Part shown: positions 34,523 through 36,000 of the stretch, piece after piece
How the letters are laid out: every line of letters starts with the position of its first letter
Position numbering within the stretch: position 1 is the first letter of the stretch
NCBI GenBank assembly: GCA_913020495.1
Contig: CAJWBJ010000004.1
Coordinates: 1-64,000 of the forward strand
Length of the DNA: 64,000 bases
Origin: an uncultured Oleiphilus sp.
GTDB lineage: Bacteria > Pseudomonadota > Gammaproteobacteria > Pseudomonadales > Oleiphilaceae
Reading direction: 5' to 3'
Made by a program: the position numbers and the translations under genes
The notes under the pieces: generated by a model
The model's input: the letters and a program-made list of their open reading frames with translations, nothing else
What the model was told of the DNA's origin: nothing
Database searches by the model: none

Positions 34523-35098
34523 ATGCCAAAAGCAAGTGAAATAAAAAAGAATACGGCGGTCGAAATTAACGGCGAAGCCTATATTGTTCGAGATATCGAG
34601 CGTTCTGTTCCACAAGGGCGTGCCGGCGGAAGCATTTATCGTATGCGTCTATATAATGTGGCAACCAATCATAAGAAAGATGAGACCTATAAAGATTCAG
34701 ACATGCTGACCTTAGCCGATTTAAACCGTCGAGCAGTAACCTTCTCATACTCCGACGGCGATGAATATGTATTTATGGACAGTGAAGATTATTCATCATA
34801 CAGTCTTGATAAAGAAGCAATAGCAGATGAATTATTATTCGTTAGTGAGGATTCACAAGGTCTGTTGGTCGTGATAGTTAATGATGCACCGGTTGCACTT
34901 GACCTGCCTTCTACTGTTGAACTTGAAATAGTAGAGACTGACCCTTCTTTGAAAGGCGGTTCCGCTACAGCTAGAACCAAGCCAGCAATTCTTTCAACCG
35001 GTTTAACGGTACAGGTGCCAGAGCATATCTCAACAGGCGAAAGAATTAGAATTAACGTAGAAGAGCGTAAATTCACAGGACGTGCCGAATCTAAATAG
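34523..35098 (+). CDS. yeiP: Elongation factor P-like protein EfpL (YeiP)
   Basis: [67 protein letters not shown]. Confidence 0.92.
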
Positions 35099-35320
35099 GA
35101 TAAAATAAAGTCCTGCTTAGTCTGTATGCAGCATGTAGAAGGGAGTCAGGCAATAACCCCTTCTCATCCTTTTACGTAGTTTTTATGATAACTTAAATTG
35201 TTGAGCAGTATTCGGAATGTATATTTAAGTTAGGTGGATATTTCTTACAAGGTAAAGTCGCTATCGAAGATGACTTTAGGCTTTAAAGTATGGATACATT
35301 AAGTTTAAACGTTAGAAACA

Positions 35321-35345
35321 AGAAAGCCCCGTGAATCACGAGGCT
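35321..35345 (-). terminator. Rho-independent terminator of the CsrB/RsmZ-like sRNA
   Basis: Minus strand AGCCTCGTGATTCACGGGGCTTTCTT: GC-rich stem followed by a T-rich tract. Confidence 0.85.
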
Positions 35346-35487
35346 AATCTGTATATCCTTATCGCTAATCCTTAGCTTGAACCTATTTCCTTGTATACTC
35401 ATTCCTTATGAGTATGAATCCATTTCCCATCATCCTTAATAGCCATTTCCTTATTGGCATATCCTTTGTTCCCTGCTGTCCTAGCAA
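35321..35487 (-). ncRNA. CsrB/RsmY/RsmZ-like CsrA(RsmA)-sequestering small RNA
   Basis: Minus-strand transcript of about 167 nt with 11 GGA motifs in about 126 nt (TCC on + strand at 35356, 35369, 35388, 35403, 35419, 35425, 35433, 35448, 35462, 35470, 35479). At least two lie in hairpin loops: AUACUCAU-AAGGA-AUGAGUAU (35395-35415) and GCUAA-GGA-UUAGC. It has a 3' terminator, a -10-like TATACT (35493-35498) and an upstream palindrome. Confidence 0.85.
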
Positions 35488-35544
35488 TACGGAGTATAAT
35501 AATGAGAGTGGTATGATAAATATAGAGACGATGACTGAAGCTTA

Positions 35545-35562
35545 TGTGAGAGATATCGCACA
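35545..35562 (-). promoter_or_regulatory. Candidate GacA/UvrY upstream activating sequence
   Basis: TGTGCG-ATATCT-CTCACA (minus strand), resembling TGTAAGN6CTTACA, within the larger palindrome CTTATGTGAGAGATATCGCACATAAG; centred about 67 nt upstream of the inferred start. Confidence 0.65.
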
Positions 35563-35598
35563 TAAGTTAGGTTCGTGAATGATATGTTGATTAACAGA

Positions 35599-36000
35599 TC
35601 AATTCTTCAGTTCGGAGGGAGCGGGATCGCAGCCTATTTTTCCGCCTAATGCTGAGAAAGCCAAACCTGCAATAACAATAATTATCGCTTTATAATTCAG
35701 TAATGTTGAATCCCCTGCACCTAGTAGTGATAGTGCTGCAACTGTAAAACCGACAATGGCAGCGTGAGTAATTTTTCTCTTATCGGTTAATATTGAAGTA
35801 AATAGCCCGCCACAAATGAAACAAATAGCATAGGTTCCCGCACTAAGGCAAAACCATAACGGCTCTTTATACTCCTTGAAGAATGTATAATCTGTAGAGG
35901 CAGTGCCGATGTAGGAAGCAAGTAAAATATAAGCCAGCTGGCCAGTGAGGAGAATGACGATGGTTAAAATAGTGCCGATAAATAATGCTTTGATGCTCAT
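35599..36000 (-). CDS. Small integral membrane protein, about four TM helices
   Basis: 133 aa with four hydrophobic stretches; no recognised family. Confidence 0.6.
   Translation of the reverse strand: MSIKALFIGTILTIVILLTGQLAYILLASYIGTASTDYTFFKEYKEPLWFCLSAGTYAICFICGGLFTSILTDKRKITHAAIVGFTVAALSLLGAGDSTLLNYKAIIIVIAGLAFSALGGKIGCDPAPSELKN

Follow-up and report, generated by a model that had tools for sequence, protein, structure and literature searches.

A predicted Gac/Rsm-type regulatory RNA gene, one of three copies in an uncultured Oleiphilus genome

The locus lies within a 64-kb window (the whole stretch of DNA that was analysed), between a small membrane-protein gene (35599..36000, minus strand) and efpL (34523..35098, plus strand), the product of which is EfpL by NCBIfam NF003392. 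From 5’ to 3’ along the minus strand its features are:

35545..35562, minus strand: GacA/UvrY/VarA-type palindromic box TGTGCGATATCTCTCACA, from consensus match and conservation
35493..35498, minus strand: -10-like element TATACT with a poor -35, from sequence; TATATA and TATACA in the aligned copies
35318..35487, minus strand: predicted CsrA-sequestering sRNA of ~165-170 nt with 11 GGA, nine of them as ANGGA
35434..35460 (approximate limits), minus strand: hairpin 1 (ATGCCAATAAGGAAATGGCT), AAGGA in the loop, with a paired change in one paralogue
35395..35415, minus strand: hairpin 2, perfect 8-bp stem with an AAGGA loop, of the same sequence in all three copies
35364..35376, minus strand: hairpin 3, 5-bp stem with the loop GGA (GGGA in the other two copies)
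35325..35345, minus strand: intrinsic terminator stem-loop followed by a T-rich tail, from a terminator scan

A preliminary description of this DNA had reported, for the minus strand between the membrane-protein gene and efpL, 11 GGA motifs in about 126 nt, a perfect 8-bp hairpin displaying AAGGA in its loop, a 5-bp hairpin displaying GGA, a rho-independent terminator after the cluster and a TATACT -10-like element with a poor -35, all of which were confirmed on recounting and rescanning. The GGA motifs lie at 35481, 35472, 35464, 35450, 35435, 35427, 35421, 35405, 35390, 35371 and 35358 (minus strand). By comparison, the minus-strand mean is 0.89 per 126 nt and the maximum elsewhere in the window, on both strands, is seven, making this the only cluster with at least eight GGA per 126 nt. 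Hairpin 1 (GCCAAT-AAGGAAA-TGGC), which the preliminary description lacked, contains, in the window copy, a single mismatched pair on the loop side; hairpin 2 has the sequence ATACTCAT-AAGGA-ATGAGTAT and hairpin 3 the sequence GCTAA-GGA-TTAGC. All three hairpins carry GGA in the loop, and between six and nine of the 11 motifs were computed to be at least 0.8 unpaired. The terminator (AGCCTCGTGATTCACGGGGCT+TTCTTGTTTC), found by the scan at 35345..35325, is the sole terminator-like site in 35100..35650, where 0.3 would be expected.

The box, centred ~67 nt upstream of the predicted sRNA start, matches the VarA/UvrY site consensus TGTG[AC]GAGATCTCT[TC]ACA (PMC6262261) at 17 of 18 positions, and no other site in the 64-kb window comes within three mismatches of that consensus (0.12 matches expected). 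The preliminary description had given a palindrome at this distance, likened to the GacA box TGTAAGN6CTTACA; the palindrome is present, but it is nearer to the VarA/UvrY form. No sigma-70-type promoter passed a promoter scan of the minus strand, in agreement with the poor -35, and such a missing consensus promoter would be expected of an activated promoter.

The genome holds two further copies of this RNA gene, which are new here. They are located at C9:25799-26046 and C9:26799-27049 (together L031:7790-9047 of G000:C9) and are 81% and 80% identical to the window copy over ~250 nt, from the box through the terminator. The two C9 copies lie on the same strand, 1000 nt apart, and share 89% identity with each other over 258 nt; a small lipoprotein-like gene separates them and an NlpC/P60 gene lies upstream. 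The arrangement of the pair is like that of the csrB gene pair in Shewanella. All three copies align in the box, the spacing, the start region, the hairpins and the terminator, and each contains 11 GGA. Two stem pairs are altered on both sides: in hairpin 1 a G-C pair has become A-U in one paralogue, and the closing pair of the terminator is G-C in the window copy and U-A in the other two. Paired cells make up 98.8% of the three-copy alignment, against 28-42% when the partners are slid, and the covariation, measured on three near-identical copies, was equalled in 45 of 500 shuffles; the backing that covariation lends to a shared structure thus appears modest. The fold z values of the three copies (-2.95, -4.71 and -2.62) are all on the side of greater stability than the shuffles.

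In relatives, loci with the box at zero to one mismatch were scored by the GGA count per 126-nt stretch within ~290 nt of the box. At least six GGA were present in 15 of these 18 loci and at least eight in 12, whereas random positions in the same 18 loci gave values of 11.7% and 0.8%, respectively; both sides of the nearly palindromic box were tried, for loci and control alike. Three of the four congeneric genomes (G001, G002 and G004) each carry a box with 7-9 GGA after it, and in the fourth (G003) a box with a GGA-rich RNA was not found with the pattern used. Many genomes of this family likewise have the box ahead of other RNAs rich in GGA. When 151 family genomes were searched with a covariance model of the three copies, no convincing homologue emerged beyond this genome, the weak matches being mainly terminator look-alikes. 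Two candidates were rejected: C15:22340 of the same genome, a terminator match with two GGA and no box, and a DNA match in G046 which covers only the terminator in front of obg. As is usual for Csr/Rsm RNAs, it is the architecture rather than the sequence that is conserved, for the RNAs of the relatives are unlike the three copies in sequence while the layout of box and GGA-rich RNA recurs. At seven of the relatives’ loci (L044, L045, L046, L053, L054, L055 and L061) the distance from the box to the GGA-rich RNA downstream of it is well over 100 nt instead of ~67 nt, which suggests that promoters within a single family come in two layouts.

Among named sequences, the EfpL of Motiliproteus sp. 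MSK22-1 comes closest (89%), which makes a marine gammaproteobacterium near Oceanospirillaceae the probable source of the window. Since none of 80 named relatives’ efpL loci has an adjoining GGA cluster, the position of the window copy beside efpL is, as judged from these sequences, lineage-specific; three GGA clusters farther from efpL occur among the 80 loci, all of them without a box. Duplication with relocation, which is known from csrB in Vibrio (PMC6262261), best explains this position; duplication has also been documented for rsmX in P. brassicacearum (PMC7911923).

Of the regulators that such an RNA would require, csrA, for which the preliminary description had proposed a check, is present, with two matches above the cut-off (90.2 and 63 bits). 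A 964-aa hybrid sensor kinase is GacS-like; it is the best BarA/GacS match at 713.5 bits, under the cut-off of 890, and its gene adjoins the cysteine synthase gene (cysM). The gacS-cysM arrangement is a usual context in Pseudomonas. The search of the 83% complete draft did not find gacA (its best match reached 122 bits, the cut-off being 280), so that of the expected gacS/gacA pair the draft yields the kinase, below the cut-off but beside cysM, and not the response regulator. All four congeneric genomes possess gacA (262-287 bits); in G001 the gene and the start of uvrC overlap. The missing gacA is likely to be an assembly gap, because the neighbouring uvrC was not found in this draft either, though it is present in 12 of 14 control genomes. 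One csrA adjoins the aspartate kinase gene (lysC), a context reported in Alcanivorax (PMC9788540). The second, divergent csrA (71 aa, 63 bits) is located at L033:1501-1716 (G000:C20:27165-27314), near a minus-strand ORF which by eye resembles an antirestriction/conjugative-element protein, and it may reside on a mobile element.

The Rfam models for CsrB, CsrC, RsmY, PrrB/RsmZ and RsmX gave the window copy no match at the gathering threshold or at E<=10, and the affiliation with the CsrB, RsmY or RsmZ/PrrB families that the preliminary description had in mind found no counterpart at threshold. One paralogue matched CsrC at 21.1 bits, below the threshold of 61. A scan with Rfam at threshold returned tRNA alone, the sRNA region having only sub-threshold matches on the opposite strand. 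Among these is PyrC_leader (window:35460-35505, plus strand; 28.3 bits against a threshold of 50), probably a chance match. While the type of sRNA is well known, this particular RNA is new and absent from Rfam.

That this DNA is a short protein-coding gene, GGA-rich by chance, is hardly credible. Mechanical ORF calling does provide frames of 54 aa (35563..35399, minus strand) and 56 aa (35408..35578, plus strand), but neither peptide matches an NCBIfam model, and in the paralogues the minus-strand reading is broken by stops and frame shifts while the RNA features are kept; on these breaks the minus-strand ORF, and that one only, was rejected as a gene. It is very unlikely, too, that a GGA-rich, CsrA-binding sRNA is here under another regulator and the palindrome coincidental: the failure to find gacA in the draft would fit, yet the box occurs in all three copies at equal spacing, and in relatives it precedes GGA-rich RNAs unrelated in sequence.

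An unlikely alternative of another kind is that the window copy is degenerate or silent and that the C9 copies are the working sRNAs. In favour of this are its place beside efpL, which is not conserved in the 80 named relatives and makes it probably a relocated duplicate, and the mismatched pair in hairpin 1. Against this, its box is the nearest to consensus among the three, the -10 element TATACT is intact, and it has kept its 11 GGA as well as hairpins and terminator.

We regard the locus as very probably the gene of a regulatory sRNA of the Gac/Rsm (BarA/UvrY-Csr) type, with two siblings in the genome. The CsrB/RsmZ-type reading of the preliminary description is supported by the paralogues, by the box and GGA-rich RNAs of the relatives, by csrA and by the GacS-like kinase. 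Phosphorylated GacA/UvrY, bound to the palindrome at about -67, would activate the weak promoter of the sRNA; the resulting ~165-170-nt RNA, ended by the terminator, would show GGA in hairpin loops and single-stranded linkers, and would bind and sequester several CsrA dimers on these sites, relieving CsrA repression and releasing the target mRNAs. We infer transcription of the sRNA, its GacA dependence, its CsrA binding and its physiological role by analogy with known systems. More tentatively, and with considerable doubt, the three copies might constitute a lineage-specific Csr sRNA family, unlike every Rfam family in sequence, which a single marine gammaproteobacterium has in triplicate and in part relocated, perhaps paired with a second, possibly mobile-element-borne CsrA. 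The scan of this genome and its relatives shows that box plus GGA density finds RNAs missed by Rfam models, and that the output RNAs of Gac/Csr can hardly be recognised as related even among members of one genus, whereas the activator box is retained. The three siblings offer material for testing why such copies multiply.

As with RsmZ, RsmY and RsmX of Pseudomonas, the predicted RNA falls in the range of ~100-200 nt, has several GGA in loops and linkers, an upstream GacA palindrome and sibling copies; it differs from them in sequence and neighbouring genes, and has no Rfam match at threshold. With CsrB/CsrC and Vibrio CsrB1-4 it shares a VarA/UvrY box of nearly equal sequence. The weak sub-threshold CsrC match of one paralogue is a further likeness to CsrB/CsrC, though the window copy has no Rfam match. 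Vibrio CsrB1-4 are also comparable as three to four siblings arising by duplication with relocation (PMC6262261).

The csrB genes of Shewanella are ~420 bp (PMC3171408), and the RNA here is shorter. Shewanella CsrB1/CsrB2 nevertheless resemble the C9 pair in being two close copies with one gene between them and a UvrY box each (PMC3171408); the intervening gene there is a transposase, whereas here it is the small lipoprotein-like gene and there is a distant third copy. Alcanivorax dieselolei, a marine relative in the Oceanospirillales, has the predicted CsrA-binding sRNAs CsrR1 and CsrR2 (PMC9788540), which were compared by description; CsrR1 originates in the 5’ UTR of hfq, and CsrR2 adjoins a ferredoxin gene (PMC9788540), unlike the copies described here.
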